Shown here: piece by piece, positions 23,566-63,997 of the stretch
Numbering within the stretch: position 1 is the first letter of the stretch
Layout of the letters: each line of letters opens with the position of its first letter
Assembly: GCF_014174255.1 (NCBI RefSeq)
Contig: NZ_JABEQJ010000011.1
Span: 1-64,000 of the forward strand
Source of the DNA: Gluconacetobacter sacchari
Lineage (GTDB): Bacteria; Pseudomonadota; Alphaproteobacteria; Acetobacterales; Acetobacteraceae
Direction: 5' to 3'
Length of the DNA stretch: 64,000 nucleotides
Notes under the pieces: generated by a model
Seen by the model: only the letters and a program-made list of their open reading frames with translations
What the model was told of the DNA's origin: nothing
Database searches by the model: none
Program-made: the position numbers and the translations under genes

Positions 23566-23596
23566 CTCCCGCGAGGGGGCGCACCGGATGATGTCG

Positions 23597-25090: not shown

Positions 25091-25138
25091 GTGTGGGCTT
25101 CCTGCGATGGGGGATCTGCGTGCTGCTGTTCGACGGGT

Positions 25139-26092: not shown

Positions 26093-26100
26093 GATATTGT

Positions 26101-26114: not shown

Positions 26115-26248
26115 CCCTGCTGGATGTGCGACATGAATCCCGCCCGGAGAATGCGTCCGGACGAGCGGTGAGGTCTGCTGAAACGAAGGCGCGACACGGC
26201 GCCCGCGCGGAGGCGCGGAAGACCCGGAAAAGGTCCTGAAGGCGCCGG

Positions 26249-27580: not shown

Positions 27581-27594
27581 GAGTTCCTCCATGA

Positions 27595-27664
27595 AGCACG
27601 TTGACCGTGCTTTTGTTGTGAACACGTTTACCGTGTTTTTGTTATCAACACGCTGACCGTGCTT
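27595..27664 (-). repeat. Three tandem 26-bp repeats, each a small stem-loop, between paaI and paaK
   Basis: Copies of CACGnTkACCGTG begin at 27597, 27623 and 27649, exactly 26 bp apart, joined by T-rich linkers (TTTTGTT). In paaK-sense RNA each unit folds as a 6-7 bp stem with a 5-nt loop: AAGCACG/CGTGCTT, AACACG/CGTGTT and AGCACG/CGTGTT. One G-C pair becomes A-T with both sides changed. The block fills the intercistronic gap from the paaI stop to just before the paaK ribosome-binding site. It may be a regulator-binding array or an RNA element; too few units and too short for CRISPR. Confidence 0.75.
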
Positions 27665-28882: not shown

Positions 28883-28921
28883 TTAATCTCTCCCGGATTG
28901 GGTCGAAAACGACTTCTTGAA

Positions 28922-28941
28922 TTGACCGTACGGTCGGTCAA
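28922..28941. promoter_or_regulatory. Probable TetR-type operator in the paaG/paaJ divergent promoter
   Basis: TTGACCGTACGGTCGGTCAA contains the perfect 12-bp palindrome GACCGTACGGTC (28924-28935) and outer arms TTGACC/GGTCAA. Its reverse complement matches the element upstream of the TetR gene at 15 of 19 positions. It lies 40 bp before the paaG ATG and about 170 bp from paaJ, where one bound repressor could control both operons. Confidence 0.65.
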
Positions 28942-29112
28942 TGACAATTGCCAGATTACAGACTTTCGGCAGGAGCGCCGATCACTTCTGGCGGAGGGGA
29001 AGACATTGCGAAACGTCCCGGCGGGACGGTGCGGGATTTCCGGTAGCCCGGGCCGGCGTTTCGCCGGGATGCGTAATCGTTTTTCATGATGTCGGCAGCA
29101 GGGATTCATTCC

Positions 29113-49659: not shown

Positions 49660-50795
49660 GCGCGTTTTCCGCAACGATGGGCCGGCCCTTTTCCGGCGCG
49701 GCCCGGACCGCGATCGTGGTGGTGGCGGTGGCGGTGGCGGTGGCGCTGGCCAGCCTGCTGCCCGAGGGCAATCCGCTGCATGTCTCGGCCTTTGTCGTGT
49801 CGCTGTCGGGCAAATATCTTGCTTATGCGATGCTGGCGCTTGCGGTGGATCTGGTCTGGGGGTTCGCGGGGATATTGACGCTGGGTCATGCCGCGTTCTT
49901 CGCGCTGGGCGGGTACGCGATGGGCATGTATCTGATGCGTGAGATCGGCGCGCGCGGGGTTTATGGCAATGCGAACCTGCCGGATTTCATGATCTTCCTG
50001 TCATGGAACCGGCTGCCCTGGTACTGGTGGGGCAGCGACCATTGGGCGTGGGCGTTGCTGCTGGTGTTCGCGGTGCCGGGGCTGCTGGCCGGGCTGTTCG
50101 GCTGGCTGGCGTTTCGCTCGCGCGTGTCGGGTGTCTATCTGTCGATCATCACGCAGGCGCTGACCTACGCCCTCATGCTGGCCTTCTTTCAGAACGGGCT
50201 GGGGTTCGGCGGCAATAACGGGCTGACGGATTTCAAGGATATCCTGGGGGCCGATCTGCATGCGGCCTCGACGCGGGCCATGCTGCTGGTCGTGACGGCC
50301 GTGGCGCTTGCGGGGGCGCTGCTGGCGGCCCGCTTCGTGGTCGGTGGCCGGTTCGGCCATCTGCTGATCGCGGTGCGGGATGCGGAAAGCCGCACGCGCT
50401 TCCTCGGCTACCGGCCCGAGCAGGTGAAGCTGCTGGTCTGGGTCTTTTCGGCGATGATCGCGGGGCTGGGGGGCGCGCTGTATGTGACGCAGGTGGGCAT
50501 TATCAATCCCGGAGAGTTCGCGCCGGCCAATTCGATCGAATCCGTGATCTGGGTGGCGGTCGGCGGGCGTGGCACCCTGTCGGGCGCGGTGCTGGGTGCC
50601 GTGCTGGTCAATTTCGGCAAGACGCTGTTTACGGCGTGGCTGCCGGCATTCTGGCTTTACGGGCTGGGGCTGCTGTTTGTCGTCACCACGCTGTTTCTGC
50701 CGAACGGGCTGATGGGCTTGCGTCGCCCGGTGCGCGCGCTTCCGGCCGCCGAGGTGACGCCTGAGGTTTCAAACGTGGAGGGCGGAGAGGCATGA
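49656..50795 (+). CDS. urtC: Urea ABC transporter, permease UrtC
   Basis: 379 aa LivM-type permease (LAYAMLALAVDLVWGFAGILTLGHAAFFALGGYAMGMYL, SRVSGVYLSIITQALTYALMLAFFQN, NNGLTDFKDILGADL). The first membrane helix is encoded partly by four perfect GGTGGC repeats (49721-49744), giving a Val-Ala-Val-Ala run. It overlaps urtB and urtD by 4 bp each. Confidence 0.92.
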   Translation: MSAFSATMGRPFSGAARTAIVVVAVAVAVALASLLPEGNPLHVSAFVVSLSGKYLAYAMLALAVDLVWGFAGILTLGHAAFFALGGYAMGMYLMREIGARGVYGNANLPDFMIFLSWNRLPWYWWGSDHWAWALLLVFAVPGLLAGLFGWLAFRSRVSGVYLSIITQALTYALMLAFFQNGLGFGGNNGLTDFKDILGADLHAASTRAMLLVVTAVALAGALLAARFVVGGRFGHLLIAVRDAESRTRFLGYRPEQVKLLVWVFSAMIAGLGGALYVTQVGIINPGEFAPANSIESVIWVAVGGRGTLSGAVLGAVLVNFGKTLFTAWLPAFWLYGLGLLFVVTTLFLPNGLMGLRRPVRALPAAEVTPEVSNVEGGEA

Positions 50796-51532
50796 GCGAC
50801 GCACCGTTGCTGGAACTGCGCGACGTCAGCGTGGCGTTCGACGGATTTCGTGCCATCAACAATTTGAGTTTGTCGCTTCGGCCCGGAGAATTGCGCGCGA
50901 TCGTCGGGCCGAACGGAGCCGGCAAGACGACCATGATGGATATCATTACCGGCAAGACGCGCCCCGATACCGGCATCGTGCGCTTTCGCGGGCATGATCT
51001 GACGCAACTGGACGAACCGTCGATCGCCCGGATGGGGATCGGCCGTAAATTCCAGAAGCCGACGGTGTTCGAGGCGCTGACCGTGCGGGAAAATCTGGTG
51101 CTGTCGCTGCGTGGCCTGCGCACGCCGTTCGCCGTGCTGATGGCGCGGCTGTCGGGAGAGGAGCGGGAGCGGGTCGATCATCTGCTGGGCGTGATCCGGC
51201 TGACGGAGCATGCCGACCGCCGGGCCGGGGGGATGAGCCATGGGCAGAAGCAATGGCTGGAGATCGGCATGCTGCTGGGCCAGGAGCCGGACTTGCTGCT
51301 GGTGGACGAGCCGGTGGCGGGCATGACGGATGCCGAGACGATGGCGACGGCCGACCTGCTGCGCGAGATCAACCGGACGCGCAGCGTGGTGGTGGTCGAG
51401 CATGACATGGATTTCGTCCGCGCCCTGGACGTGACGGTGACGGTTCTGCACGAGGGCAGCGTGCTGTCCGAAGGCGCGCTGGACGTGGTGAGCGCCGACC
51501 CGCGTGTGATCGAGGTCTATCTTGGCCGTTGA
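50792..51532 (+). CDS. urtD: Urea ABC transporter, ATP-binding protein UrtD
   Basis: 246 aa LivG-type ATPase: Walker A GPNGAGKT (39-46), the UrtD-like MMDIITGKTRPDTG, signature region MSHGQKQWLEIGMLL in place of a canonical LSGGQ, Walker B LLLVDEPVAGM and the switch His (VVVVEHDMDFV). It energises urea uptake with UrtE. Confidence 0.93.
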   Translation: MSDAPLLELRDVSVAFDGFRAINNLSLSLRPGELRAIVGPNGAGKTTMMDIITGKTRPDTGIVRFRGHDLTQLDEPSIARMGIGRKFQKPTVFEALTVRENLVLSLRGLRTPFAVLMARLSGEERERVDHLLGVIRLTEHADRRAGGMSHGQKQWLEIGMLLGQEPDLLLVDEPVAGMTDAETMATADLLREINRTRSVVVVEHDMDFVRALDVTVTVLHEGSVLSEGALDVVSADPRVIEVYLGR

Positions 51533-51564
51533 AATATGGCGGTCCGCGGGGGGAAGGAGCGGCT

Positions 51565-52260
51565 ATGCTCAGGGTTGAGGACGTGCATCTGCAATATGGC
51601 GCGGCCCTGGCCCTGCGCGGCGCGTCGCTGGAGGCGCGGGCCGGCGAGGTGACCTGCGTGCTGGGGCGCAACGGGGTGGGCAAGACCAGCCTGTTGCGCG
51701 CCGTCACCGGCATGCATGCGGTCGCTTCCGGACGGATCGCGTGGGAGGGCGAGGACATCACGTCGTTGCCGGCCTATGAGCGGACGCGGCGGGGCATCGC
51801 CACCGTGCCGCAGGGGCGGGATATCTTTCCCCTGCTGACGGTGCGCGAGAATCTGGCCACGGGCTTCGGCCTGCTGCCGCGCGGACGCAGGAAGGTGCCC
51901 GATGAGATCTTCGATCTTTTTCCCGTGTTGGCCAGGATGCTCGATCGCAGGGGGGGCGACCTGTCGGGGGGGCAGCAGCAGCAGCTTGCGATCGCGCGTG
52001 CGCTGGTGATCGGGCCGAAGCTGCTGGTTCTCGACGAACCTACCGAGGGAATCCAGCCGAGCATCATCAAGGATATCGGCACCATCATCGGTATGCTGCG
52101 CGATCGCGGGGACATGGCGATCGTGCTGGTGGAGCAATATTTCGATTTCGCGTTCGAACTGGCCGATGCGGTGACCGTGCTGGATCGTGGCCAGGTCGTC
52201 CTTGCGGGGCGCGCGGAGAACCTGGCGGCGGACCAGGTTCGCGCGCATATCGCGATTTAG
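51565..52260 (+). CDS. urtE: Urea ABC transporter, ATP-binding protein UrtE
   Basis: 231 aa LivF-type ATPase: Walker A GRNGVGKT (34-41), signature LSGGQQQQLAIARAL, Walker B KLLVLDEPTEGIQPSIIKDIG (typical UrtE) and VLVEQYFDFA. ATG 51565 is preferred over the upstream TTG because AAGGAG precedes it. Last gene of urtABCDE; it ends 16 bp before a convergent gene. Confidence 0.93.
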   Translation: MLRVEDVHLQYGAALALRGASLEARAGEVTCVLGRNGVGKTSLLRAVTGMHAVASGRIAWEGEDITSLPAYERTRRGIATVPQGRDIFPLLTVRENLATGFGLLPRGRRKVPDEIFDLFPVLARMLDRRGGDLSGGQQQQLAIARALVIGPKLLVLDEPTEGIQPSIIKDIGTIIGMLRDRGDMAIVLVEQYFDFAFELADAVTVLDRGQVVLAGRAENLAADQVRAHIAI

Positions 52261-52276: not shown

Positions 52277-52672
52277 TCACGCGCAGAAGGTTTCCTGTAG
52301 AAACGCCCAGAGCAGCGTGTCGTCGGGGCCTTCGGCGAATGTTACGCTGGACCAGCGTTCGGTGCGGGTTTCGCCCTGGGTCTGGATTTCCCGGTAGGTG
52401 GCCAGGAGGCCGCCGGGGAAGACATGGCGGAGGGCCACGTCCTCGATCGTCATCACCAGGCCGGGGCGCGAGCCGTGCAGGGTGGGCAGCGCAGTGGCGA
52501 AGGTTTCGACCGGCAGAAGGCGGCCGGCGGCGCCGACCATGGCGTAGTCGGGAGTGAAATGTTTGAGTACCGTTGCCGGATCGGAGGTGCCTTCGCCACG
52601 GAACCAGGCTTGCAGGACGACATGCAGGGCGACGATTTCATCGTGAGCGGCTTTCAGCAAACGGTCGGTCAT
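52277..52672 (-). CDS. NTF2-like (SnoaL/ketosteroid-isomerase fold) protein, IacI candidate
   Basis: 131 aa small cone-barrel protein (MTDRLLKAAHDEIVALHVVLQAWFRGEG, VLKHFTPDYAMVGAAGRLLPVETFATALP, TERWSSVTFAEGPDDTLLWAFLQETFCA). Last gene of the minus-strand aromatic operon, 20 bp after another NTF2-fold gene. Known iac clusters end in a small protein of unknown function (iacI); this may be its counterpart, but sequence alone does not settle it. Confidence 0.65.
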   Translation of the reverse strand: MTDRLLKAAHDEIVALHVVLQAWFRGEGTSDPATVLKHFTPDYAMVGAAGRLLPVETFATALPTLHGSRPGLVMTIEDVALRHVFPGGLLATYREIQTQGETRTERWSSVTFAEGPDDTLLWAFLQETFCA

Positions 52673-52692
52673 GGTGCGGGACACTCCGGCGG

Positions 52693-53250
52693 TCAGGGAT
52701 TCATCAGGACGGAAACGGCGGGATAGGCATTCGCCCATCCCGGTGTCAGCGGCGCGACGAAGACGTTTTCGGTGCGGGTGCGGGCGACCTTCCAGACCCC
52801 GTCCACCCTGCGGAACAGATTGTTGAGGCGGCTGGAGCGCAGGAGCGCGGTGCCGTCGTCGAAAATCCAGGGCTGGCAGTGAATCCACTGGCCGTCGGCC
52901 TCGTCGCCATGGACGTGGATCTGTTCCGATGTCAGGTAATGCGCGTTCAGCAGCAGGCCGGGCCTGCGGGACGGGCTCCAGAATTTTTCGAAATGGGCGC
53001 GGATCGCGTCCTTGCCCACGGCGCGGCCGAACTGGTTGTCGTAATAGGCGCCCACGCCTTCCCAGACCGCGTCCTCGCAATAGAGATCCATGATCCGCGC
53101 GATCCGCTCGGCGTCGTCGATCTGGCCGGGCTCGGGGCAGGGGGTGTCGCACAGGAACATGTAGCGCGCCTGAATCCGGCGGATATCGGCCTCGGCGGAC
53201 AGCGCGTCCAGTTTCGCCTCCAGGCGGGCCAGGCGGTCTTCGATGTTCAT
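52693..53250 (-). CDS. NTF2-like (SnoaL_4-type) protein
   Basis: 185 aa. The N-terminus is a short helix with heptad-like leucines (IEDRLARLEAKLDALSAEADIRRIQARYMFL), then an NTF2 fold (ARIMDLYCEDAVWEGVGAYYDNQFGRAVGKDAIRAHFEKFW, HGDEADGQWIHCQPWIF, FRRVDGVWKVARTRTENVFVAPLTPGW). AAGGAG precedes the ATG. It could be an isomerase, dehydratase or lactonase in the operon's pathway; function not assignable by sequence. Confidence 0.7.
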   Translation of the reverse strand: MNIEDRLARLEAKLDALSAEADIRRIQARYMFLCDTPCPEPGQIDDAERIARIMDLYCEDAVWEGVGAYYDNQFGRAVGKDAIRAHFEKFWSPSRRPGLLLNAHYLTSEQIHVHGDEADGQWIHCQPWIFDDGTALLRSSRLNNLFRRVDGVWKVARTRTENVFVAPLTPGWANAYPAVSVLMNP

Positions 53251-53261
53251 GACCGGACTCC

Positions 53262-54497
53262 TTATGATTTCAGCGCGGGCGGCATTGGGCGGGCGGGCAG
53301 CAGGGCCTCGGCCCACAGTGCGTGGCCGAGCAGCGCGTGGTCGGTGCCATGGGGGCCCAGGCACTGGATGCCGACCGGCAGGCCCGACGGGCCGAGCAGG
53401 CCCGGCAGCGTCACCGTGGGCAGATAGAGCAGGGTCCACAGGCGGCTGAAGATCGGGCTGCCGGTGCCCTGGCTCCGCAACGGGGCCTCGCCGGGGGCGG
53501 CCGGCGCCACCAGCATGTCGTACTGCGCGAACAGCGCGGCGGCGCGGCGGCGCAGGTCCGCGGCCTGGGTTTGGGCCTGTTCGTACGCGGCGCGGGTGAT
53601 CTTGCGCCCGGCCTCGATCAATCCGACGATCTGCGGGCTGCACATGTCCCGGCGGGCCTGGTATTCCCAGGCCAGGGCCTGGGCGGCCTCGAAGCTCATG
53701 ATCGTGACGTGCAGGTCGGCGGCGGCGGCGAAATCGTCCATCTGCACCGTTTCGACCGCCGTGTGGGCGCCGAACAGGCGCTCGGCCTCCTCCATCGCCA
53801 TGCGGGTGCCCTCTTCGGCCTCGTTCCACCATGGGGTGCGGCAGATGCCGATCCGGGCCGGGGCCCGGGGAGAGACGGGCAGCGTGGCGGGCACCGGGGC
53901 GGCCAGCACCGCGTCGGCGGCGATGGCTGTCGCCACGTCGGGGGTGATGGTGCCGAGCGCGTCGAAGGAGGGGCCGAGCGCCTTGACCCCCGACAGGGCA
54001 TAGCGCCCGTAGGTGGGCTTGAAGCCGACGACGCCGCAATAGGAGGCCGGGCGCGTCAGGGAAGCCGCGGTCTGCGAGGCGATGCCGATATCGACCATGC
54101 CCATCGCCACGGCGGCGGCGGAGCCGCTGGAGGAGCCGCCGGGGGTGCGGGCCGGATCGAACGGATTGGTGGTCGGGCCGGGCCGGAAGAAGGCGAATTC
54201 GGTGGTGACGGTCTTGCCTGCCATGCTGGCGCCCGCCGCGCGCAGCAGGGCGACGCAGGCGGCGTCGCCGGTCGCGCGATGGCCGGCGTAGATTTCCGAC
54301 CCGTAGCCGGTGGGGTAATGTTGGGTATCGACGATGTCCTTGACGCCGACCAGCCGTCCGTTGAGGGGGCCCGGCGGGGCGGTTGCCAGATCCTGTTCCA
54401 GGCGGTCTGGATCGTGGGCCGCGAAGGCCTGGATCCCGGGTTCGAAACGGGCGATGTGCGCGATGCGGGCGGTGGGGTCGATGGTCTGGCCTGTCAT
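53262..54497 (-). CDS. iacH: Amidase-signature hydrolase (IacH-like)
   Basis: 411 aa amidase-signature enzyme with the Ser-cisSer-Lys set: Lys53 (GRLVGVKDIVDT), the glycine/serine loop TPGGSSSGSAAAVAMG (Ser122-126) and nucleophile candidate Ser146 (SQTAASLTRPASYCGVVGFKPTYGR). The usual TGGS before the nucleophile is TAAS here. It cleaves an amide or related C-N bond; in iac clusters an amidase acts after ring opening of the indole. AAGGAATG precedes the ATG. The 11-gene context supports the iac label, which is inferred. Confidence 0.7.
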   Translation of the reverse strand: MTGQTIDPTARIAHIARFEPGIQAFAAHDPDRLEQDLATAPPGPLNGRLVGVKDIVDTQHYPTGYGSEIYAGHRATGDAACVALLRAAGASMAGKTVTTEFAFFRPGPTTNPFDPARTPGGSSSGSAAAVAMGMVDIGIASQTAASLTRPASYCGVVGFKPTYGRYALSGVKALGPSFDALGTITPDVATAIAADAVLAAPVPATLPVSPRAPARIGICRTPWWNEAEEGTRMAMEEAERLFGAHTAVETVQMDDFAAAADLHVTIMSFEAAQALAWEYQARRDMCSPQIVGLIEAGRKITRAAYEQAQTQAADLRRRAAALFAQYDMLVAPAAPGEAPLRSQGTGSPIFSRLWTLLYLPTVTLPGLLGPSGLPVGIQCLGPHGTDHALLGHALWAEALLPARPMPPALKS

Positions 54498-54505
54498 GAC
54501 ATTCC

Positions 54506-55018
54506 TTACCCTGGATGGCGTTCCGTTTGGCCCGGGAGGTCGAAGGCGCCCCGGAAATAAAGCAGCGGCCCGGCGGCCGGGTCGGGATCGACCGCGACGT
54601 GCAATGGCCGGGCGAGAAAGATCTCGTGCGTGCCGCCGCGCAGGGTCTCGACCACCTCGGCGGTGATGTGGACCAGCGCGCCGTCGACCAGCACCGTGCC
54701 GTCCGCCTCGCGCCGGGTGGCGACGCTGCCCTGCTTGCGGTCGGCGGGCAGGGCGAAATAGCGGGCGATCGGTTCCTGGCCGTGGGACAGCACGCTGAGG
54801 CCGAAGCGCCGGGTGTGTTCGATCGCCCGGCAGGTGGCGCTGCCGCGTTTGAGGCAGATCAGCAGGGTCAGCGGGTCGAGCGACACCGAGCTGAGGGCGC
54901 TGATGGTGGCGCCCTGGTCGCCGTGATCGTCCCGGGCGGTGACCACCGCCACGCCGGTGGCGAAATGGGCCATCGCGCGGCGGAACTGGTCGGATGTGAC
55001 GGAGATGTCGGAAGTCAT
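54506..55018 (-). CDS. iacG: Flavin reductase (HpaC-like), partner of the IacA-type monooxygenase
   Basis: 170 aa split-barrel flavin reductase (QFRRAMAHFATGVAVVTARD, GATISALSSVSLDPLTLLICLKRGSAT, RFGLSVLSHGQEPIARYFALPADRK, GPLLYFRGAFD). It supplies reduced flavin, most likely to the group D monooxygenase at 60.3-61.5 kb. It is distinct from HpaC at 6.8 kb. 8 bp separate it from the amidase gene. Confidence 0.75.
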   Translation of the reverse strand: MTSDISVTSDQFRRAMAHFATGVAVVTARDDHGDQGATISALSSVSLDPLTLLICLKRGSATCRAIEHTRRFGLSVLSHGQEPIARYFALPADRKQGSVATRREADGTVLVDGALVHITAEVVETLRGGTHEIFLARPLHVAVDPDPAAGPLLYFRGAFDLPGQTERHPG

Positions 55019-55034
55019 GTGCCCTGCTTTTCCG

Positions 55035-55796
55035 TCAGGCCGCGTTGTCGCCGGGCCAGAGCGGCCCGCGTTCGCGGCGCATCTTGCGCACGGCGGCGTC
55101 GAAGGTCAGGTCGGCCGCCGAGGAATGGGCGATCAGCCCGGCCGCGTCGCGGGCGCAGCCGCGCCGGATCTCGTCGGACAGCCGGACGTCGGCGCCGGGG
55201 ATCATGCCGGTATGGCACTGGATCTCGGCGGCGCGCTGGCAGATCCACAGCAGGAAGAAGGCGCGCGCGACATCGGCCTCGCCGACCGCGAGGCCGTGAT
55301 TGCGCAGGACCAGCACATTCCTGTCGCCCAGGCTTTCCAGCATGCGGGGGCGCTCTTCGTCATAGAGCGTGATCCCTTCGAACGTGTGGTAGCCGACGCG
55401 GCCGAAGAGTTGGGCGCCGTAGAAATTGTCGTGGCTGAAGCCGCCTTCCTTCATCGCGACGGCGGTGACGGCGCTGGTATGGGTGTGGATCACGCAATGG
55501 ATGTCGTCGCGCGCGGTATGGATCGCGCCGTGCAGGGCGAAGCCGGCGGGATTGGGCTTGTAGGCCGACTGGGTCACCAGTTCGCCGCTGGCGTTGACGA
55601 CCAGCAGGTTTTCCGGCGTCACTTCCTCGTAATGCAGGCCGAAGGCATTGACGAGATAGCGCGTCGGCTCGCCGGGCAGGCGCAGCGAGATGTGGTTGAA
55701 GATCATCTCGGTCCAGCCGAGATGGCTGATGAGGTGATAGCATTCCGCCAGGCGGACCCGGAGGGTCCATTCGTCCTGCATCGCGTCGCTGGTCAT
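55035..55796 (-). CDS. Class II aldolase/adducin-family protein
   Basis: 253 aa zinc aldolase fold. Metal ligands by motif: HTHTSAVTAVAM (two His) and LRNHGLAVGE (third His); family N-terminus LAECYHLISHLGWTEMIFNHISLRLPG. Substrate unknown; relatives act on phospho-sugars, hydroxy acids or as decarboxylases. It overlaps the upstream gene by 4 bp (ATGA) and lies inside the iac-like operon, which known iac clusters do not show. It may split a side chain, for instance acetate or glyoxylate, from an indole-derived intermediate (speculative). Confidence 0.75.
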   Translation of the reverse strand: MTSDAMQDEWTLRVRLAECYHLISHLGWTEMIFNHISLRLPGEPTRYLVNAFGLHYEEVTPENLLVVNASGELVTQSAYKPNPAGFALHGAIHTARDDIHCVIHTHTSAVTAVAMKEGGFSHDNFYGAQLFGRVGYHTFEGITLYDEERPRMLESLGDRNVLVLRNHGLAVGEADVARAFFLLWICQRAAEIQCHTGMIPGADVRLSDEIRRGCARDAAGLIAHSSAADLTFDAAVRKMRRERGPLWPGDNAA

Positions 55797-56782
55797 GATG
55801 TCTGTTCCTTTACGGGCAGGGAGGTGCATTGGAAGGTCACGAGGCCGAGCAGGGTGGCGGTCACGGGCGTGGGTACGCCCAGATGGGCCGCCAGGGCGAC
55901 CAGTGCGTCGCCGATCGCCACTGTTTCCAGCGTGCGGCCGGCGCGGAAATCCTGCAGCATCGAGGTTTCGTGCGCGCCGGCCGCCGCCATGATGTCGCAG
56001 ATCGCGCCGGCCGGCTTGAGGGGGGGGATGCCGCAGGCCGTGCCGACGGCGATCGCCTCGTTCAGCGTCGCGTGGACGATGGCGCGGGTGGCGGGGGTGG
56101 TGGCCATGGCCGCGAGCGTGGCGCCGGTGATGACCGACAGGGGATTCGATGCCACGTTGCCGGCGAGCTTGGTCCAGATTTCCCCGCGGATGGTGTCGGC
56201 GATGCAGGCGTCGATCCCGCAGGCGCGCAGCAGATCGGCCAGCTGGTCCAGCCGCGCGTGCGGGCCGGAAGTGGCCGGGCCCAGCATCAGGCGCATCGGG
56301 CGCAGGGAATGGACCCGGCCGGGGGCCGGGCTGGCGGAAAAGGCATAGGCGACGCAGCCCGCGATCTGTCGAGTCGGCAGATGGATGGCCAGTCGCCCGG
56401 TTGGGTCCAGCAGGGGGGCGATCGCGCGGAAGGCGGGCGGGGCGTCGCCTGCCGTCATCCACCATGGGATGCCGTTGACGACCGGGACGATCAGCGTTTC
56501 GGGGCCGACGGCCGGCAGGATCGCCGGCAGCAGGCTGGGCAATTGATGCGATTTGACGGCGAGGAACAGGATATCCGCCGGGCCGGAGGCGCGTTCGGCG
56601 GCGTCGGGCCGGCAGGTGTAAGCCTGGCCGGCCCCGGTGAGGGTCAGGCCGTGCGCGCGCAGGTGCGACAGGGTTTCGCCGCGCGCGATCAGCGACACAG
56701 GGGCGCCCCCGCGCGCCAGAGTGGCCGCCAGCGTGCCGCCGATGGCGCCGATGCCGGCGACGCAGATGCGCGGCGTGGTCAC
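55793..56782 (-). CDS. Ketopantoate reductase-family (ApbA/PanE) oxidoreductase
   Basis: 329 aa. Rossmann motif VAGIGAIGGTLAATLARGG at the N-terminus, then ARGETLSHLRAHGLTL, LAVKSHQL, VVNGIPWW and the catalytic Lys/Asn region EIWTKLAGNVASNPLSVITGATLAA. GTG start at 56782 overlaps the preceding stop (GTGA). It reduces a 2-keto acid or oxidises a hydroxy acid. Placement inside an aromatic operon argues for a catabolic substrate and not pantothenate synthesis. Confidence 0.75.
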   Translation of the reverse strand: MTTPRICVAGIGAIGGTLAATLARGGAPVSLIARGETLSHLRAHGLTLTGAGQAYTCRPDAAERASGPADILFLAVKSHQLPSLLPAILPAVGPETLIVPVVNGIPWWMTAGDAPPAFRAIAPLLDPTGRLAIHLPTRQIAGCVAYAFSASPAPGRVHSLRPMRLMLGPATSGPHARLDQLADLLRACGIDACIADTIRGEIWTKLAGNVASNPLSVITGATLAAMATTPATRAIVHATLNEAIAVGTACGIPPLKPAGAICDIMAAAGAHETSMLQDFRAGRTLETVAIGDALVALAAHLGVPTPVTATLLGLVTFQCTSLPVKEQTS

Positions 56783-57744
56783 AGATCGACCACCAGCAGC
56801 GGGCCGCGGGCGCGCGAGCAGCAGAGCGCGATCTGGTCGGTGCGTTCGTCCTCGGTCAGGTATTCGTCGCGGTGGTCGGGCTCGCCTTCCAGCACCGTGG
56901 CGACGCAGGTGCCGCAGATGCCCTGTTCGCAATTGACCCGCACCTTGACGCCCGCGCGGGCGAGTGCGGCGGTGATCGGCTCGTCGGCGGCGACGGCGAC
57001 GCGGATGCCGGACTTGGCGGCCAGGACCTCGAAACTGTCGCCGTTTTCGACCGGCAGGGCGGAGAAGTCCTCGCGATGGATCTGGTCGGGCGCCAGGCCC
57101 AGCGCCAGCGCGGCTTCCGCGACCGCGTCCATCAGGCCGAGCGGGCCGCAGCTATAGACGCACAGGCCCGCCGTGCCGCCGTTGCGGGCGATGGCTTCGG
57201 CGATGGCGGCGCGCGGGTCGAAGCGCGGAGTGTCCGGTTGGCTGCGATCGTGGATCTGGACCTGCGCGGCGAAACCTTCGCGCGCCAGCAGGGGGGTGAA
57301 GACGGGGTCGCGCGCCACATAATGCAGGGTGAAGGGTTGGCCCGCGCGGGACAGGGTGTGGGCCATCGCGATCAGGGGGGTGACGCCGATGCCGCCGCCA
57401 ACCAGCACCGCCGCGCCGCGGTGGGCCGTGTCGAGCGGGAAGAGGTTGCGTGGGGCGCCGATGGCCAGCGTGGCGCCCGGTTGCACGCGGTCATGCACCG
57501 CGCGCGATCCGCCGCGCCCCTGCGGTTCCAGCAGGACGCCGAGCCGATAGCGGGCCTGGTCCGCCGGATCGCCGCAGAGCGAATATTGCCGCACCAGATC
57601 GTCATCGAGGAACAGGTCGATATGGGCACCGGCCTCCCATGGCGGCAGGGTGCCGGCCCGGGGCAGGAGGTCGAAGATCAGCACGTCGCCCCGTTGGTCG
57701 ACGGCGTCGATGATTGTTTCGATCCGTGCGCGGCTGGTGGTCAT
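56779..57744 (-). CDS. iacF: VanB/PDR-type ferredoxin reductase of the Rieske dioxygenase
   Basis: 321 aa. FMN/FAD-binding domain (RQYSLCGDPADQARYRLGVLLE), NAD domain (GGGIGVTPLIAMAHTL, YSCGPLGLMDAV) and a C-terminal plant-type 2Fe-2S domain (NCEQGICGTCVATVLEGEP..C). It transfers electrons from NADH to the adjacent dioxygenase. The order dioxygenase alpha, beta, SDR, reductase matches iacC-iacD-iacE-iacF. Confidence 0.8.
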   Translation of the reverse strand: MTTSRARIETIIDAVDQRGDVLIFDLLPRAGTLPPWEAGAHIDLFLDDDLVRQYSLCGDPADQARYRLGVLLEPQGRGGSRAVHDRVQPGATLAIGAPRNLFPLDTAHRGAAVLVGGGIGVTPLIAMAHTLSRAGQPFTLHYVARDPVFTPLLAREGFAAQVQIHDRSQPDTPRFDPRAAIAEAIARNGGTAGLCVYSCGPLGLMDAVAEAALALGLAPDQIHREDFSALPVENGDSFEVLAAKSGIRVAVAADEPITAALARAGVKVRVNCEQGICGTCVATVLEGEPDHRDEYLTEDERTDQIALCCSRARGPLLVVDL

Positions 57745-57763
57745 CCGTCTGCTCTCCCCGGGC

Positions 57764-58516
57764 CTATCTCAGATAGAGGCCGCAATTGATGTCGATGGTG
57801 GCGCCGGTGATGGAGCCGGCGTCGGGGCGGGCCAGTTCGACCACCATGCGCGCGACCGTGGCCGGGTCGCCCAGATGGCCGGTGGGGAGGCCCGCCGCGA
57901 CCCGTGCGGCGGCTTCGGCGCCGATGGTCTCGGCCACCGAGGGCAGGTCCAGCGGCCCGGGAGAGATGGCGTTGACCGTGATGCCGTGGGGAGCCAGGTC
58001 GCGCGCGAAGACCTTGGTCAGCGTGTGGACCGCGCCCTTGGAGGCCGCGTAATGCGCGCCGGTCGCCGTGCCGCCGTTCTGCCCCGCCAGCGAGCCGATA
58101 TTGACGATGCGGCCGCCCTGGTCGCGGGCGCGGAGGCGGCGGGCGAAACGCTGCGTACACAGGAAATTGCCGCGCAGGTTGACCGCCATCACCGTGTCGA
58201 AGGTCTCGATGTCGATATCGAGCACCTTCTGCGCCTTCATGATCGCCGCGTTGTTGACCAGCAGCCAGGGCAGGCCATGCGCGGCCTCGACCGTATCGAG
58301 CGCGGCTTCGATCGCGGATTCGGACGTGACGTCGAGCGCGACCGCGTGGCCGCCCAGGCGTGCCGCGGTGGCCTGGGCGCGCGGCAGGTCGCGGTCGCCC
58401 AGCACGACCCTGTAGCCCGCCGCCGCCAGGGCCCCGGCGATCGCGGCGCCCAGGCCGCGCGCGCCGCCGGTGACGAGTGCCACCGGGGCCACGGGGGCCT
58501 CTGCGGCGGCGCTCAC
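57764..58516 (-). CDS. iacE: Short-chain dehydrogenase/reductase (IacE-like)
   Basis: 250 aa classical SDR: TGGARGLGAAIAGAL cofactor motif, NNAA, catalytic Ser (NIGSLAGQNGG) and YAASKGAVHTLTK. The GTG start overlaps the dioxygenase beta-subunit stop (GTGA). In iac clusters the SDR acts on the hydroxylated indole-acetate intermediate. General SDR chemistry is certain; substrate is inferred. Confidence 0.78.
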   Translation of the reverse strand: MSAAAEAPVAPVALVTGGARGLGAAIAGALAAAGYRVVLGDRDLPRAQATAARLGGHAVALDVTSESAIEAALDTVEAAHGLPWLLVNNAAIMKAQKVLDIDIETFDTVMAVNLRGNFLCTQRFARRLRARDQGGRIVNIGSLAGQNGGTATGAHYAASKGAVHTLTKVFARDLAPHGITVNAISPGPLDLPSVAETIGAEAAARVAAGLPTGHLGDPATVARMVVELARPDAGSITGATIDINCGLYLR

Positions 58517-58986
58517 AGGATGTAGCTCACGGCTGTCAGGGCTTCGGTGGCGATCAGCAGGCGGATCACCTTGAGGTCGATCTTCAGCCCGTCGGGGGTG
58601 CGGACCAGGCGATAGGTGACGTTGGCCGCGTAATCGCGTTCGCGGTGCTGGCGCAGTTCCTTGAGGTACTGGGCGCAGCGCAGGGTGCAGGCGTCGCCGT
58701 CGCTGGCCAGCATGCGGTAGCGCGAGAGCAGGCGCACCGTCTGCGCGGGCGGAGCGGCCGAGATCGAGCGGCCGCCCAGCAGGCGCTCGACGCGCTTGGC
58801 GCGCATCGCCGCGTCGTCATAGGCGTAGTTCAGGACGTTCTCGAAATCCTCGGCGTCGGGATCGATGGGGATCACGTATCTGCCGCCGGGCGTGTAGAGG
58901 CCGAGCCAGTCGTGGAACTGCCCGTGGTCGAGCAGGTCGGCTTCCAGCGTGACCAGGGCCACGGCTTCGTCGAGGGTGATGGTCAT
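58513..58986 (-). CDS. iacD: Aromatic-ring-hydroxylating dioxygenase, beta subunit
   Basis: 157 aa cone-fold small subunit (MTITLDEAVALVTLEADLLDHGQFHDWLGLYTPGGRYVIPIDPD, AKRVERLLGGRSISAAPPAQTVRLLSRYRM). Structural partner of the alpha subunit, with which it overlaps by 4 bp (ATGA). Start at ATG 58986; the 15-residue upstream extension lies inside the alpha gene. Confidence 0.82.
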   Translation of the reverse strand: MTITLDEAVALVTLEADLLDHGQFHDWLGLYTPGGRYVIPIDPDAEDFENVLNYAYDDAAMRAKRVERLLGGRSISAAPPAQTVRLLSRYRMLASDGDACTLRCAQYLKELRQHRERDYAANVTYRLVRTPDGLKIDLKVIRLLIATEALTAVSYIL

Positions 58987-60260
58987 GCCACGGTCTCTCC
59001 GGCGGGTTCGGCGGTCATGGCGGCCAGCCACTGGCGATAGGCGGCGCGCATGCCGGTCTCGGCGCTGACGTCGCTGTAGAGATGGCCGTCGGCGCGCTTT
59101 TCCTCGTGCGCCAGGCCGCGATTCAGCAGGATGGGAATGTCGCGCCCGGCGAGCGCGCCGCGATGCACGCGGTCCCAGGCCTCGGCGTCGTCGGGGGTGC
59201 CGAAGCCCATCGGGCCCTGGAAATGCTCGTGCAGGCGCAGGCGGGCCTGGTTGGCGATGTCCGGCCCGCCATCCATGCCGATCGCGATATGGCGGATTTC
59301 GGTCTGCGAGACGCCCAGGGGGCGCAGGACGCGGAAGAACGCCATCGAGCAGGCCAGGTTGGGGAACAGGTTGAGGTTGAAGCCCGACCCGCCGACGGCG
59401 CGGATGATCTGGCGGACCTTTTCCGGCGGATAGGTCTCGGCCAGTTGCGCGGCCAGTTCGAGGAAGCGTTCGGGGATCGGCGCGTCGAGATTGTCGTCCA
59501 GATCGACCAGTTCGGGGATCATGACCATGACCGAATGGCCGTGGCCGAGATCCTCGACGAAGCCCTTGCCGCCGACGAAATTCAGGATGTCCTGCGTTTC
59601 CTGGTCCACCGAATCCAGGAAGGATTTGTGGACGATCGGGAAATGATAGGCGTCGGTCGTGTTTTCGAGCTGGATCTTCCAGTTGCCCGGGAAGGTGAAT
59701 TTATGCTCGCCCATCGTCTTGACCGGCCAACCGGCGCCCTGCTTCATGAACAGGTCGATCCACGGTTTCGCCGCGCCCAGCCAGCTGTCCAGGTCGGGAA
59801 TGGCGTGATCGAAGGTGGCGAAGATCAGGCCCTGATAGTCCGCGACCCGCAGATTGACCAGCGGCAGCGAGGCCTTGTCGAGATCGTCGCCGTAGCCGTT
59901 CTGGTGCGGCACGCCGCGCAAGGCGCCGTCGAGCCCGTAGGCCCAGCCGTGATAGGGGCAGACGAAGCTGGCGGTGTGGCCCTTGTGCTGCTCGCACACC
60001 GTCGCGGCGCGGTGGCGGCAGCGGTTGAGCATGACATGGACCGTGCCCTTGCGGTCGCGGGACACGATGACCGGGTGGGGGCCGACGAACGTGGTGATGA
60101 AATCGCCGGGTTCGGGGATCTCGCTGCGGTGCGCCACCCAGATCCAGTTATGCATGAAGATGCGGTCCATCTCCATGTCGAACAGGGCGGGGTCGTTATA
60201 GATGGACCCGTCGGCCCTGTCCGCCGAGAGAAAGCTGCGAGGATCGGGCTGATCGCTCAT
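58983..60260 (-). CDS. iacC: Aromatic-ring-hydroxylating dioxygenase, alpha subunit (Rieske)
   Basis: 425 aa. Rieske 2Fe-2S ligands Cys81-x-His83 and Cys101-x2-His104. Mononuclear iron site NTTDAYHFPIVH with Asp203 as electron bridge and His206/His211 as ligands; a carboxylate from the C-terminal third completes it. It attacks the ring or side-chain-bearing carbon of the substrate with O2. AGGGAG precedes the ATG. Length and gene neighbours match IacC of indole-3-acetate degraders; other aromatic acids are possible. Confidence 0.83.
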   Translation of the reverse strand: MSDQPDPRSFLSADRADGSIYNDPALFDMEMDRIFMHNWIWVAHRSEIPEPGDFITTFVGPHPVIVSRDRKGTVHVMLNRCRHRAATVCEQHKGHTASFVCPYHGWAYGLDGALRGVPHQNGYGDDLDKASLPLVNLRVADYQGLIFATFDHAIPDLDSWLGAAKPWIDLFMKQGAGWPVKTMGEHKFTFPGNWKIQLENTTDAYHFPIVHKSFLDSVDQETQDILNFVGGKGFVEDLGHGHSVMVMIPELVDLDDNLDAPIPERFLELAAQLAETYPPEKVRQIIRAVGGSGFNLNLFPNLACSMAFFRVLRPLGVSQTEIRHIAIGMDGGPDIANQARLRLHEHFQGPMGFGTPDDAEAWDRVHRGALAGRDIPILLNRGLAHEEKRADGHLYSDVSAETGMRAAYRQWLAAMTAEPAGETVA

Positions 60261-60308
60261 GGTTTGGCTCCCTTGCGCATTGGAAAAAACTTGGGAATAT
60301 CTTCGGGT

Positions 60309-61466
60309 TTACGGATAGCCTGGGCGGCCGCCCCGGCCGAGGATCAGCCGGCCCGCGACCTCGTAATTGCCGCGCGCCATGAAGGCGTGCTGCGCCACCA
60401 CGGCGCTGTCCTGCATGCAGCGCGCCAGGATATGGTCGGCATCCACCGCCGCGATGCCGCCCAGTTCGAAACAGCGGCGCGCGACCTCGTACGATGCCTG
60501 GGCGGCATGGATGCAGGCGAGGCGGACGCGCCCGGCGCAGGCCTCGTCCGCCGGTCCGGCCTCCACCGCCGCCATGGCGGCGCGCGTGGCATCGTAGAAG
60601 AAGCTGCGGGCGGCGGAGAGCGTTGCCTCGGCCTCGGCGACGGCGAACTGGACATAGGGCCGGTCGGCCATGACCGGGGCGCCGGTGATGGATGTGCGCC
60701 CCCGCGCCATTTCGGTGACCTCGGTCAACGCCCGGCGGGCGCAGCCCAGCCCGACCACCGTGAGCACCTGCGCCGCCAGGGCCAGGGAGGGATACCGGTA
60801 GATCGCGCCGTCGAGACTGGAGGGGCCGCCGCGGATGAACGTCCAGTCCATCGGCACGCGGATGGCTTCGACCACGATATCGTGGCTGCCGGTGCCGGCC
60901 ATGCCCATGGTGTTCCAGGTTTCGTCGATCCGGGCCTGCGATGCCGGGAAGACGGCGGTGCGCGGCAGGCCGCCGCCGGCCGGCCCGTCGGGCAGGGAAA
61001 CCCCCACGCCCAGCAGGTCCGCCCCGGTGCAGCCGCTGGCATAGGGCCAACTGCCCGAGACGATCAGATCGTCGCCTTCGACCCCGGCGGGGCGGGGGGG
61101 GAAGATCGCGCCGGCGAAGACCACGTCGGGACCGTCGCGATAGATCGTCTCCAGCGTCTGGACCGGCAGGGCGGCGAGATAGAGGGCCGAGACGCCGAAG
61201 CTGGCGACCCAGCCGGCGGACCCGTCGGCCCGGGCGATCGTTTCGATGGCTTCGAGAAAGCGGTCGGGCGGGATTTCCAGTCCACCGAAGCGGCGGGCGA
61301 CGAAGGCGCGATAGATGCCGATCGTCCTGAAGCCCGCGACGATGTCCGGGGCAAGGCGCCGGGCCTTGCGGAAGGAAAGCGCCCGGTCGCTGATCTGCCG
61401 CAGAAGGGCATCGAATTCCGGCCCGTCCGCAAATCGCGAGCCTGCCTGCTCGACAGAGGTCAACAT
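60309..61466 (-). CDS. iacA: Acyl-CoA-dehydrogenase-like flavin monooxygenase (IacA-like)
   Basis: 385 aa group D flavin monooxygenase with the acyl-CoA-dehydrogenase fold (GIYRAFVARRFGGLEIPPDRFLEAIETIARADGSAGWVASFG, SGSWPYASGCTGADLLGVG, ETWNTMGMAGTGSHDIVVEAIRVP, C-terminal RCFELGGIAAVD). Such enzymes use FADH2 from a separate reductase, here the HpaC-like protein in the same operon. In the iac system this enzyme performs the first hydroxylation of indole-3-acetate. First gene of the operon; AAGGG is 7 nt before the ATG. Confidence 0.75.
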   Translation of the reverse strand: MLTSVEQAGSRFADGPEFDALLRQISDRALSFRKARRLAPDIVAGFRTIGIYRAFVARRFGGLEIPPDRFLEAIETIARADGSAGWVASFGVSALYLAALPVQTLETIYRDGPDVVFAGAIFPPRPAGVEGDDLIVSGSWPYASGCTGADLLGVGVSLPDGPAGGGLPRTAVFPASQARIDETWNTMGMAGTGSHDIVVEAIRVPMDWTFIRGGPSSLDGAIYRYPSLALAAQVLTVVGLGCARRALTEVTEMARGRTSITGAPVMADRPYVQFAVAEAEATLSAARSFFYDATRAAMAAVEAGPADEACAGRVRLACIHAAQASYEVARRCFELGGIAAVDADHILARCMQDSAVVAQHAFMARGNYEVAGRLILGRGGRPGYP

Positions 61467-61618: not shown

Positions 61619-63997
61619 CTAGAAGGAGACGCCGCCCTGGATGTACCATTGGCGGCCGCGGTCGTACGAGGCCATGAAGTTGTTGACGCTGGCCGAGAAG
61701 CTGCCCCAGTGCATGTATTTCTCGTTGCTGATGTTGTCGACGCCCGCCATGAAATTGTAGCGCGCGTCGGGGCTGACCCAGCGCAGCGAGGCGTTGACCA
61801 GGATATATTCGGGCTGGAACAGCGGGGCGTAATTGATGCTGTTGACGTCGGCGTTGTAGCGCGAACGGTAGGAGGCATCGACGCGCGGGGTGAGGGTGCC
61901 GGCGCGGCCGATCTGGATCGTCCTGGCGACGCCGGCATTGGCGGTCCATTTGGAGACCATGGCGAATTTCGAATTCAGGGTCAGGCCCGAAACCTTGGCC
62001 GTGAGCTTGGTATAGTGCGCGTCGGTCATGCCCAGGGAGCCGGTGAGCATCCAGCCGTCGCCCAGCGCGTACTGGGCCTCCAGCTCGAAGCCCGGAATAC
62101 GGGCGGAGCCGGCATTGGTGTAATAGGGACCGATCGTCGCGGCGTCGGAGACCAGGAGCTGTACATCGTCATAAAAGACGTAGAAGCCGCTGGCGCTGAC
62201 GCGCAGGCGATGGTCCAGCCCGTAGAATTTCAGGCCGCCTTCGAAGGAATTGACGCTTTCGGGCCGGAAGGACGGTGGTGCGCTGACGATCTTGGTCAGG
62301 CGCTGGGTGAAGCCGCCGCCCTTGAAGCCCTGCGAAAAGGTCGAATAGGCCATCAGTTCCGGCGTGACCTGGTAGGCCACGTTGACCATCGGGGTCCAGC
62401 GGGCGTTGTTGTTGTGGAAATTTTCGTACGGGACGATCCGCGTGCCCGGCGGGGCGGTGACGTAGGGTGCGCGGCCCCAGACGATATACTGGTCCGGCAG
62501 GAAGGTCTTGTCGTCCTCGGTATAGCGCACGCCCGCGGTGACGCTGAGCTTCCTTGTGAAGGAATAGGTGGCCTGGGCGTAGGCGGCGTAGTTGATATCC
62601 TTGAAATAGCCGCCGCTTTCCAGATATTCGACCCATTTGTTGCCCGGGTTGATGTCCGCGCCGGACTGATTGAAATAATAGAGGCCGGCCGCGTAATGCA
62701 GGCGGCTCGACAGAGCCCGGCCCATGACCTGGAATTCTTCGGAAACCTGCTTTTCCGAATAGCCGTCCCACAGGTCGTTGATGGCGATCGGCGAGGAGTC
62801 GCGGTCCTGGGCGAACTGGCCGGTGGTCTGGTGGATGGCGGTGATCGATTTGACTTCGAGATAATGCGAGAATGCGTAATCGATCGTGGCCGAGGCCGAC
62901 CAGCTTTCGATATTGGAATAGTTGGGGGCCGTGCTGTAATTTGTCGTCTTGCTGAAATATTTCGAACCGTAGCAGCCGGGCAGGGTGCAGCTTGCCCAAT
63001 TGGCCTTCGTGGCGCCGGCCGCGATATTGTTCAGCGCGACCACGCTGCCGGACAATGTCGGGTCTATGCCGATGACGACATAGGGCGCGCCGTTGCTGCG
63101 GTCGCGGGTGTAATCGCCGCGCAGGGTGACCGTCAGCCTGTCGACCGGGTGCCAGAGGATCGCGCCCTTGAAGATGCGCGTATCCTGGTTGCCCATCTTG
63201 CGCTGCCGTTCGGCATAGGGCTGGTTGACGTAGCCGTCCTGCATGAAGCTGCCGACGGAGAAATTGAGGAACAGGTTCCTGGCCAGCGGGACATTGACGA
63301 ACGCGCGGGCATTGATGCGGTTGCCGGTGCCGTATTTGACGTCGGCCTTGGCGGACAGGCGGTCGTTGGGTGTGAGGGAGGACACCGTGACCGCGCCGCC
63401 GATCGTATTGCGTCCGAACAGGGTACCCTGGGGGCCGCGCAGCACCGAGACGTTGGCGACGTCGATCATGTCCAGCACCGACCCCACGGTGTTGCCGGCA
63501 TAGACGCCGTCGATATACAGGCCGACGCCGGGGTCCACGCCGAAGGAGAAATCGGTCTGGCCGATGCCACGGATGAAGATGGCCGCGGCATTGGCGACGC
63601 CGGCATTGGAGGCGACATTGCCGAACATCATGTTCGGCGCCATGTCCTGGATGCGGGCGATCGAGGTGATGCCGCGTTCGGTGAATTCGCTGCCCGAGAC
63701 GGTGGTCATGGAGATGGGCGTGCGTTCGATCGGCTCGCTGCGCCGGCGGGCGTTGACGGTGATCTGTTCGAGCCCGCTTTCCGGCCGGGTTTTTTTTGCC
63801 CCGGCGCCGGTGGCGGGGCCGGCCTTGGCTTTTGCCCCGGGTGCCGTGCCGGCGGGGCCCGCTTCGGTCCGCGCCAGGGCGGGGGCGGCGGAGATTGCCA
63901 GGACAGCGCAGCCACAATACCAAAAGCGGCGGCCGAACAGACCGGAGATTCCCGCGGGACGGCTGATGACATGTTTTGATATAGAAACGAAATACAT
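61619..63997 (-). CDS. TonB-dependent outer-membrane receptor
   Basis: 792 aa, complete unless translation starts beyond the window edge. Signal peptide GLFGRRFWYCGCAVLAISAAPALA, an Ala/Gly/Pro/Lys linker, TonB-box/plug domain (EQITVNARRRSEPIERTPISMTTVSGSEFTERGI, SVLRGPQGTLFGRNTIGGAV) and a 22-strand barrel ending in QGGVSF. It imports a larger or scarce ligand with TonB energy. It lies upstream of the iac-like operon on the same strand but is separated by a terminator-like hairpin. The ligand may be an aromatic conjugate or an iron chelate; undetermined. Confidence 0.85.
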   Translation of the reverse strand: MYFVSISKHVISRPAGISGLFGRRFWYCGCAVLAISAAPALARTEAGPAGTAPGAKAKAGPATGAGAKKTRPESGLEQITVNARRRSEPIERTPISMTTVSGSEFTERGITSIARIQDMAPNMMFGNVASNAGVANAAAIFIRGIGQTDFSFGVDPGVGLYIDGVYAGNTVGSVLDMIDVANVSVLRGPQGTLFGRNTIGGAVTVSSLTPNDRLSAKADVKYGTGNRINARAFVNVPLARNLFLNFSVGSFMQDGYVNQPYAERQRKMGNQDTRIFKGAILWHPVDRLTVTLRGDYTRDRSNGAPYVVIGIDPTLSGSVVALNNIAAGATKANWASCTLPGCYGSKYFSKTTNYSTAPNYSNIESWSASATIDYAFSHYLEVKSITAIHQTTGQFAQDRDSSPIAINDLWDGYSEKQVSEEFQVMGRALSSRLHYAAGLYYFNQSGADINPGNKWVEYLESGGYFKDINYAAYAQATYSFTRKLSVTAGVRYTEDDKTFLPDQYIVWGRAPYVTAPPGTRIVPYENFHNNNARWTPMVNVAYQVTPELMAYSTFSQGFKGGGFTQRLTKIVSAPPSFRPESVNSFEGGLKFYGLDHRLRVSASGFYVFYDDVQLLVSDAATIGPYYTNAGSARIPGFELEAQYALGDGWMLTGSLGMTDAHYTKLTAKVSGLTLNSKFAMVSKWTANAGVARTIQIGRAGTLTPRVDASYRSRYNADVNSINYAPLFQPEYILVNASLRWVSPDARYNFMAGVDNISNEKYMHWGSFSASVNNFMASYDRGRQWYIQGGVSF

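Follow-up and report, generated by a model that had tools for sequence, protein, structure and literature searches.

Two aerobic routes for the degradation of the auxin indole-3-acetate (IAA) have been described, which share this substrate and differ in their oxygenases and end products. The iac route ends in catechol and its Rieske oxygenase is thought to act late (PMC7225977), and an iac fragment of Pseudomonas putida was reported to confer growth on IAA (PMC8383072). In the iad route, the Rieske enzyme acts first and anthranilate is reached via the route's own F-J enzymes (PMC12633357). The iac clusters of Marinomonas hold a class II aldolase and a 2-dehydropantoate 2-reductase, listed there without a function (PMC11373566); this was the only open paper found to join these two enzymes with indole-3-acetic acid. 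Here, we analysed a window of 64,000 nucleotides from the acetic acid bacterium Gluconacetobacter sacchari (Acetobacteraceae; positions 1 to 64,000 of contig NZ_JABEQJ010000011.1), in which eleven close-packed genes on the minus strand (61466-52277) very probably form an iac-type IAA degradation operon, as judged by sequence identity and gene content. Two of them encode a PanE/ketopantoate-reductase-family protein and a class II aldolase-fold protein, and this pair is in all likelihood an accessory of IAA catabolism. An iac-type operon with an accessory pair feeding IAA, and a ring that is probably not mineralised, is the overall explanation which we favour with moderate confidence; the feeding chemistry itself, the conversion of indole-3-pyruvate or indole-3-lactate to IAA by the pair, is put forward tentatively.

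Relationship to described clusters

Counterparts of iac proteins were judged against five reference loci from Acinetobacter, Klebsiella and Novosphingobium. With the canonical cluster of an Acinetobacter plasmid, which has an annotated IacB, the window proteins share 46.5% (A), 65.7% (C), 49% (D), 45% (E), 46% (F), 28% (G), 27% (amidase) and 30% (I) identity. The IacA-like protein aligns over 365-383 residues with IacA of four reference loci, no counterpart being found in the fifth. The Rieske system IacC/IacD/IacF is present, as are IacE and IacG, the latter as a member of the same family only. The preliminary description of the window had named these operon genes, and all were confirmed at their coordinates and strand by open reading frames (ORFs) and, the last small protein excepted, by Pfam matches. 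It had also assigned to the operon the iac gene content A and C to I; identity and content bear this out for A, C, D, E, F, G and I, but the amidase is not a canonical IacH.

No match to iacB was obtained in the whole genome, a draft of 114 contigs, with a query protein that finds iacB by tblastn in the loci of three relatives (L051, L056 and L060); IacB is reported to take no part in the first two reactions (PMC7225977). One of these loci, L056 of relative G331, carries in one operon iacH (48%), I, A, B (59%), C, D, E and F, followed by PanE, aldolase and G, and thus bridges the form found in the window and the canonical iac form.

The comparison of the Rieske alpha subunit with iac and iad enzymes, which had been suggested as a check, agrees with this assignment. 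Compared with 63-66% identity to the reference IacC proteins, the alpha subunit shares 24% (142 bits) with an IadD-type protein, and it scores 142 bits with the Variovorax IadD structure 7yls. In a tree of 62 hand-picked rows, in which three outgroup rows have runaway branches and are unreliable, it falls among the iac-linked IacC proteins. Rows with and without a found aldolase are mixed in this tree, and the label 'no aldolase', which for the plasmid references means absence within the fetched stretch, needs at least eight changes. IacC is the most conserved protein of the operon (77-96% identity in the loci of relatives, 67% in L061), which indicates that the Rieske step is still under selection. 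As tested IacA and IacE enzymes accept other indole acids (PMC7225977), the substrate range of the operon may be wider than IAA.

The P. putida 1290-type cluster shares with the window the counterparts of IacA, C, D, E, F, G and I; the aldolase and PanE were not found there (PMC11373566), and the window is devoid of canonical IacH and IacB. Marinomonas sp. NFXS50 and MWYL1 have in common with the window iacA, C, D, E, F, G and I, the class II aldolase and the 2-dehydropantoate 2-reductase, together with a 2-hydroxyacid-oxidising enzyme, a divergent amidase (28.6%) and MarR (PMC11373566); identity to the window proteins across six Marinomonas loci amounts to 62-63% for the aldolase and 36-38% for PanE. 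Of the two, Marinomonas alone carries iacB, catechol genes and an ABC transporter next to the pair (PMC11373566), whereas only the window has the pair between iacF and iacG and a TonB receptor, and it shows neither iacB nor a recognisable catechol dioxygenase. Compared with the iad operon of Variovorax (IadCDE, IadF-K2), the window operon contains no CoA ligase, thiolase or cyclase-type amidase; the same aldolase is present in two iad loci, from Cognatazoarcus and a Rhodospirillales metagenome-assembled genome (MAG), and PanE in the first of them only.

Distribution of the pair

Within the order, 395 genomes were surveyed for IacC at E<=1e-120 and for the aldolase at E<=1e-60. IacC was found in 22 genomes, 18 of which (own genome included; one over part of the protein only) carry it at an identity of at least 78%, referred to as the window's IacC type, and four at 63-67%. 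The aldolase was detected at 73-100% identity in 18 genomes, 17 of them with the window's IacC type. Co-occurrence of the aldolase with this IacC type (17/18) is thus more than chance (Fisher p 1.2e-27, without correction for kinship), and none of the four genomes with the other IacC has the aldolase at this threshold. The pair follows iacF within the operon in 12 of the 17 genomes and lies 7-12 kb from iacC in five. G153 has IacC only and G145 (Gluconacetobacter liquefaciens; L081/L064) the aldolase only; in the latter, the panE match is split in two, as a frameshift would produce, the fetched stretch around the aldolase showed no iac genes, and the locus looks decayed. The contig of G135 is identical in sequence to that of Gluconacetobacter dulcium LMG 1728, as is the compared stretch of G145 to that of G. 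liquefaciens DSM 5603; these matches speak for an acetic acid bacterium near G. dulcium as the host and against a sphingomonad.

A pattern scan of genome contigs (one genome per species, 84,980 species) with an alignment of twelve aldolases as the query yielded 509 relatives, the best 80 of which were taken as named loci with flanks of 10 kb, or less at contig ends. At least two iac genes accompany the aldolase in 60 of these 80 loci (56 if only six core genes are counted, 60 with G and canonical H included), two or more iad genes in two, and neither in 18. The last group comprises eight loci with the same transporter or binding-protein genes, two with the shared CoA ligase only and eight with none of these; it includes L091, although its genome has iac about 12 kb away. 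In 74 of the 80 loci, a PanE gene on the same strand stands no more than 400 bases from the aldolase; gene calling misses the aldolase in L092. The genera represented include Pseudomonas, Acinetobacter, Marinomonas, Azospirillum, Rhodopseudomonas and Bradyrhizobium as well as several of the Roseobacter and Paracoccus families, Hylemonella, Ideonella and one Sphingomonas. The pair is therefore no private change of the pathway, and stands beside IAA-degradation genes in many Pseudomonadota; a private insertion is ruled out by the Marinomonas clusters and the 60 iac-linked loci, which also contradict the earlier statement that known iac clusters lack the two genes. As the 80 loci were chosen by the aldolase, they do not tell the frequency of the pair among iac clusters. 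Aldolase distances correlate with those of IacC (r 0.86, n=44) and IacA (r 0.88, n=57; 0/2000 shuffles), a relation confounded by species kinship. L071, L072, L136 and L122 also contain PanE/aldolase pairs (PanE 40-45%, aldolase 59-64%), and the stretches fetched around them lack both iac and iad genes; neighbours in L136 and L122 include MFS and TRAP transporters.

Around the pair in Cognatazoarcus (L134/L186), a POR/DUF6537 protein, which we take to be of the indolepyruvate-oxidoreductase kind, lies upstream of the reductase (iadC) and the Rieske alpha (iadD) and beta (iadE) subunits. They are followed by a CoA ligase, a thiolase, a short-chain dehydrogenase (SDR), a cyclase-family protein, a second SDR and a binding protein, and then by a branched-chain-type ABC transporter, PanE, the aldolase, a CoA ligase and MarR. 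Its iadD matches 7yls over the full length with 652.7 bits, and the gene order after iadE is the IadF-G-H-I-J-K2 order described in PMC12633357. In the Rhodospirillales MAG (L102), the aldolase lies beside iadD (67%), five other iad genes and a binding protein, with no PanE. If one pair serves both routes, its target should be something that the two have in common, namely IAA, its uptake or precursors, or perhaps dioxindole-3-acetate (DOAA); since the routes differ in oxygenases and end products, the pair most likely acts before they part. Because it is found with the catechol route as well as with the anthranilate route, we do not regard a redirected ring product as the best reading.

Proposed role of the pair

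The aldolase-fold protein belongs to the class II fuculose-type fold (PF00596) and its metal triad His104/His106/His167 is conserved in 104/104 homologues. At the position of Glu73, which is catalytic in FucA (PMC11841055), the same 104 homologues have an invariant N-P-A-G and no Glu, the correspondence being drawn by hand count and not by structure. The structure model resembles NovR, TqaM and pyruvic oxime dioxygenase, enzymes with a class II aldolase fold and non-haem iron; the NovR entry is titled bifunctional non-haem iron oxygenase, and one TqaM entry contains bound D-3-phenyllactic acid, which is not shown to be a substrate. NovR and TqaM cleave 2-hydroxy or 2-oxo acids oxidatively, NovR acting on a mandelate-type acid; a search of open papers returned none on TqaM. 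The PanE-like protein has both the ApbA and the ApbA_C domain, and its genomic setting points to a substrate other than ketopantoate.

In the scheme which we propose, IacA with the flavin reductase, together with IacE, would convert IAA to DOAA, as shown for homologues in the literature, and IacC/D/F with the amidase and IacI would open the ring system towards catechol. PanE would reduce indole-3-pyruvate to indole-3-lactate, and the aldolase-fold metal enzyme might produce IAA and CO2 by oxidative cleavage of the 2-hydroxy or 2-oxo acid, in the way NovR and TqaM act, while the other lactate isomer would be oxidised by the flavin mononucleotide (FMN) 2-hydroxyacid dehydrogenase adjoining the operon. 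We count in favour of this feeder role the NovR/TqaM-like fold, the missing Glu73, the POR/DUF6537 protein upstream of iadC and a 4dqd-like binding protein. The binding protein (at least 60% identity) stands beside the pair in 40 of the 80 named loci; the two which were searched are nearest in sequence to 3sg0 and 4dqd, the latter titled as a complex with 3-phenylpyruvic acid, and a model with a mean predicted local distance difference test (pLDDT) score of 69.7 served only for reading entry titles. An IadK2-like assignment was dropped, as 3sg0 and 4dqd are nearer. P. putida 1290, whose cluster has no such pair, was reported not to grow on indole-3-lactic or indole-3-pyruvic acid (PMC7225977), which we also count for the feeder role; this role predicts that pair-bearing strains use these acids. 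If it is true, many bacteria destroy auxin precursors as well as auxin. The fuller picture, a shared feeder docking onto either of two unrelated routes and, in acetic acid bacteria, a truncated auxin-destroying pathway with the side chain kept and the ring left, appears rather doubtful.

Several observations weigh against a feeder. Nearly as good a match to the fold of the aldolase model is given by a decarboxylase and by genuine class II aldolases. For the binding protein, similarity extends to IadK2, which binds IAA (7ylt, 248-268 bits), and to p-coumarate binders, and an identity of about 42% does not fix its ligand; moreover, an ABC transporter with binding protein was not found within the fetched flanks of 12/12 named loci of acetic acid bacteria, so that the import argument is not applicable to the window. 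The POR-type enzyme of the iad locus would already take indole-3-pyruvate, and a shared intermediate such as DOAA would also explain a pair common to both routes. The FMN 2-hydroxyacid dehydrogenase is near the operon in 9/18 genomes with the window's IacC type. Finally, a sample of the phylum (398 genomes) contained ten other IacC genomes, two of which encode a close aldolase (57-60% identity) at a distance of 8-10 kb from iacC, one copy containing an internal stop, while four have aldolase matches of at most 47% only and four none at E<=1e-20; the aldolase is thus dispensable for iac, and the P. putida fragment reported to confer growth on IAA is without it (PMC8383072).

Alternatively, the aldolase may act after the Rieske step, which we consider unlikely. 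Lactam hydrolysis of DOAA would give 2-(2-aminophenyl)malate, and dioxygenation with loss of ammonia would leave a ketone carrying hydroxyls on the neighbouring and the next position, an arrangement that FucA-type aldolases cleave; a retro-aldol reaction would then yield catechol and oxaloacetate, PanE or the FMN dehydrogenase handling the C4 acid. By our own arithmetic, C10H9NO4 + H2O + O2 + 2H = catechol + NH3 + oxaloacetate balances, and an acid/base Glu might not be needed if the leaving enediolate becomes aromatic. Angular dioxygenation by an IacCD counterpart was proposed for strain LY1 (PMC8383072), and how DOAA becomes catechol is recognised as a gap in the middle of the iac pathway (PMC7225977); a pair recurring beside both aerobic routes is a candidate for a missing step or for an entry. 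Yet the pair also stands in the iad operon, where the Rieske enzyme catalyses the first step and anthranilate is the product, and retro-aldol cleavage was set aside as the leading explanation for this reason. Furthermore, 8/10 of the other IacC genomes in the phylum sample have no close aldolase, nor does the shorter C-D-F-amidase-SnoaL operon of the same genome.

The redirection proposed in the preliminary description, in which the pair removes the side chain and leads the intermediate to isatinate or anthranilate, is improbable. It would proceed from isatinate via 2-aminomandelate (PanE) to anthranilate (aldolase-fold protein), or by cleavage of DOAA, and is in keeping with the title of the NovR entry, with isatin, isatinate and anthranilate found with an iac-type strain (PMC8383072), and with the own genome and most close relatives having no recognisable catechol dioxygenase: a catechol 1,2-dioxygenase over cut-off is missing in 17/18 and a 2,3-dioxygenase in 18/18 genomes with the window's IacC type. 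Redirection is not shown and is weakened by the coexistence of the pair with catechol genes in Marinomonas (PMC11373566) and G048, by its place in the iad operon, whose route makes anthranilate with its own enzymes, and by the conservation of IacC. The interpretation given there as a whole is thus partly supported. That the operon degrades a different indole or aryl acid is very unlikely, as the modest identity to the reference clusters (46.5-50% for IacA, 27-39% for the amidase) and the lack of anything on IAA degradation by acetic acid bacteria among the literature matches listed are set against seven iac counterparts in one operon with IacC at 63-66%, the bridging operon L056 with iacH, iacB and the pair, and the aryl-acetate context of the window.

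Fate of the ring and gene surroundings

The ring product is probably not mineralised in this organism. The earlier statement that the window contains no catechol ring-cleavage genes holds for catechol; the window has a homoprotocatechuate 2,3-dioxygenase, HpaD (9656-10636). In the own genome, a draft assembly, PF00775 matches only a neighbouring gene pair read as pcaHG, TIGR03211 matches only HpaD and one further protein at 44.7 bits, both under cut-off, and the LigB hit belongs to the 4,5-DOPA dioxygenase type. One of the 18 genomes with the window's IacC type, G048, encodes a catechol 1,2-dioxygenase that exceeds the model cut-off, about 1.3 kb away from the aldolase; 15 are without any match, and weak matches at a neighbouring gene pair occur in the own genome (G000) and G135. 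All four genomes with the other IacC have a match, two over cut-off, one at 332.8 and one at 158.3 bits. The contrast is 1/18 versus 2/4 at the strict cut-off (p 0.07) and 1/18 versus 4/4 with the weak pairs left out (p 0.0007); for a catechol 2,3-dioxygenase over cut-off it is 0/18 versus 2/4. An HpaD-like protein at about 200 bits is present in 3/18 genomes, the own included, and LigB-family matches number one in 14/18, two in 3/18 and none in 1/18. With no recognisable catechol dioxygenase in most genomes of this IacC type, IAA may be only partly degraded. That 17/18 of these acetic acid bacteria lack such a recognisable enzyme suggests that they inactivate auxin but do not grow on the ring, a point of interest for the microbiology of fruits and flowers.

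The features of the locus are collected in Table 1. The eleven operon genes are at most 48 bases apart, and the distance between the IacA gene and the TonB receptor is 152 bases. Four-base overlaps join the VanB-type reductase with PanE and PanE with the aldolase, the GTG start of the PanE-like gene overlapping the preceding stop and the aldolase ATG overlapping the PanE stop. Of the cluster limits given earlier (52277..61466), the eleven genes are real, but the locus does not end at 61466: the TonB receptor lies upstream and, outside the window, the FMN 2-hydroxyacid dehydrogenase, a MarR gene and an MFS transporter (locus L062). A receptor homologue (66-68%) lies directly upstream of IacA in 7/17 other main operons with the window's IacC type and in 8/12 named loci of acetic acid bacteria. 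Both small proteins at the operon end had been called NTF2-like. This applies to the first; for the second it is unconfirmed because a Pfam search gave no match. Homologues of the second protein stand at the operon end with 52-76% identity in relatives with the window's IacC type and 40-49% in three with the other IacC.

Table 1. Positions and assignments of the genes of the iac-type locus
Feature	Position	Strand	Basis
TonB-dependent receptor, probable outer-membrane uptake gene of the locus	61619..63997	-	ORF
IacA-like flavin monooxygenase, acyl-CoA dehydrogenase fold	60309..61466	-	PF08028; 46.5-50% to IacA of 4/5 reference loci
IacC, Rieske oxygenase alpha subunit	58983..60260	-	PF00355, PF00848; 63-66% to IacC of five reference loci
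IacD, Rieske oxygenase beta subunit	58513..59031, probable start 58986	-	PF00866; 38-52% to references
IacE, short-chain dehydrogenase	57764..58516	-	PF13561; 45-57% to four references
IacF, VanB-type ferredoxin/NAD reductase	56779..57744	-	PF00111; 45-46% to two references
PanE/ketopantoate-reductase-family 2-oxoacid reductase, accessory pair gene 1	55793..56782	-	PF02558, PF08546; NF005089 over cut-off
Class II aldolase/adducin-fold metal enzyme, accessory pair gene 2	55035..55796	-	PF00596; model and fold match
Flavin reductase in IacG position, HpaC/StyB family	54506..55018	-	PF01613; 23-30% to reference flavin reductases
Amidase in IacH position, own family	53262..54497	-	PF01425; 27-39% to amidases of five reference loci, 55-86% in relatives
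IacI-like SnoaL/NTF2 protein	52693..53250	-	PF13577; 30-46% to four references
Second small protein of the locus	52277..52672	-	no Pfam match; conserved at operon end in relatives

A second, shorter operon of the same genome (L009, G000:C3, 12769-19654) comprises a TonB receptor (24%), C (85%), D (77%), F (69%), amidase (69%) and SnoaL (75%), with no A, E, G (flavin reductase) or pair. The C-D-F-amidase-SnoaL set recurs in G084, and a C-D-F-G fragment is found at a contig end in G063. This shorter operon may serve the uptake of an auxin that is already oxidised, for example DOAA.

The window is an aryl-acetate island. A thiamine pyrophosphate (TPP)-dependent decarboxylase (139-1833), possibly acting on arylpyruvates, reaches 481.8 bits with the indolepyruvate decarboxylase model, under its cut-off of 946. 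It is followed by a 4-hydroxyphenylacetate (hpa) cluster (5249-13575) with HpaB-, C-, E-, D-, G-, H-, I- and F-type genes, of which HpaE, HpaD and HpaH are over their model cut-offs and HpaI just under. The phenylacetate (paa) genes (16016-30321), with a PaaX-like regulator under cut-off, enclose a pyrroloquinoline quinone (PQQ) alcohol dehydrogenase (21364-23544) and a phenylacetaldehyde-dehydrogenase-like gene (23597-25090). This alcohol dehydrogenase is 27 kb from the operon, and a homologue lies in the fetched stretch of 13/17 other main operons with the window's IacC type (one cut by the stretch end), as expected if alcohols such as tryptophol were also fed in. Urea-type ABC transporter genes (46722-52260; UrtA over cut-off) and the iac operon converge, the last genes of the two sets being 16 bases apart. 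In Novosphingobium aromaticivorans pNL2 (L013), the iac-type genes are next to an aldehyde dehydrogenase gene and to genes annotated as amine dehydrogenase; these could channel tryptamine into IAA.

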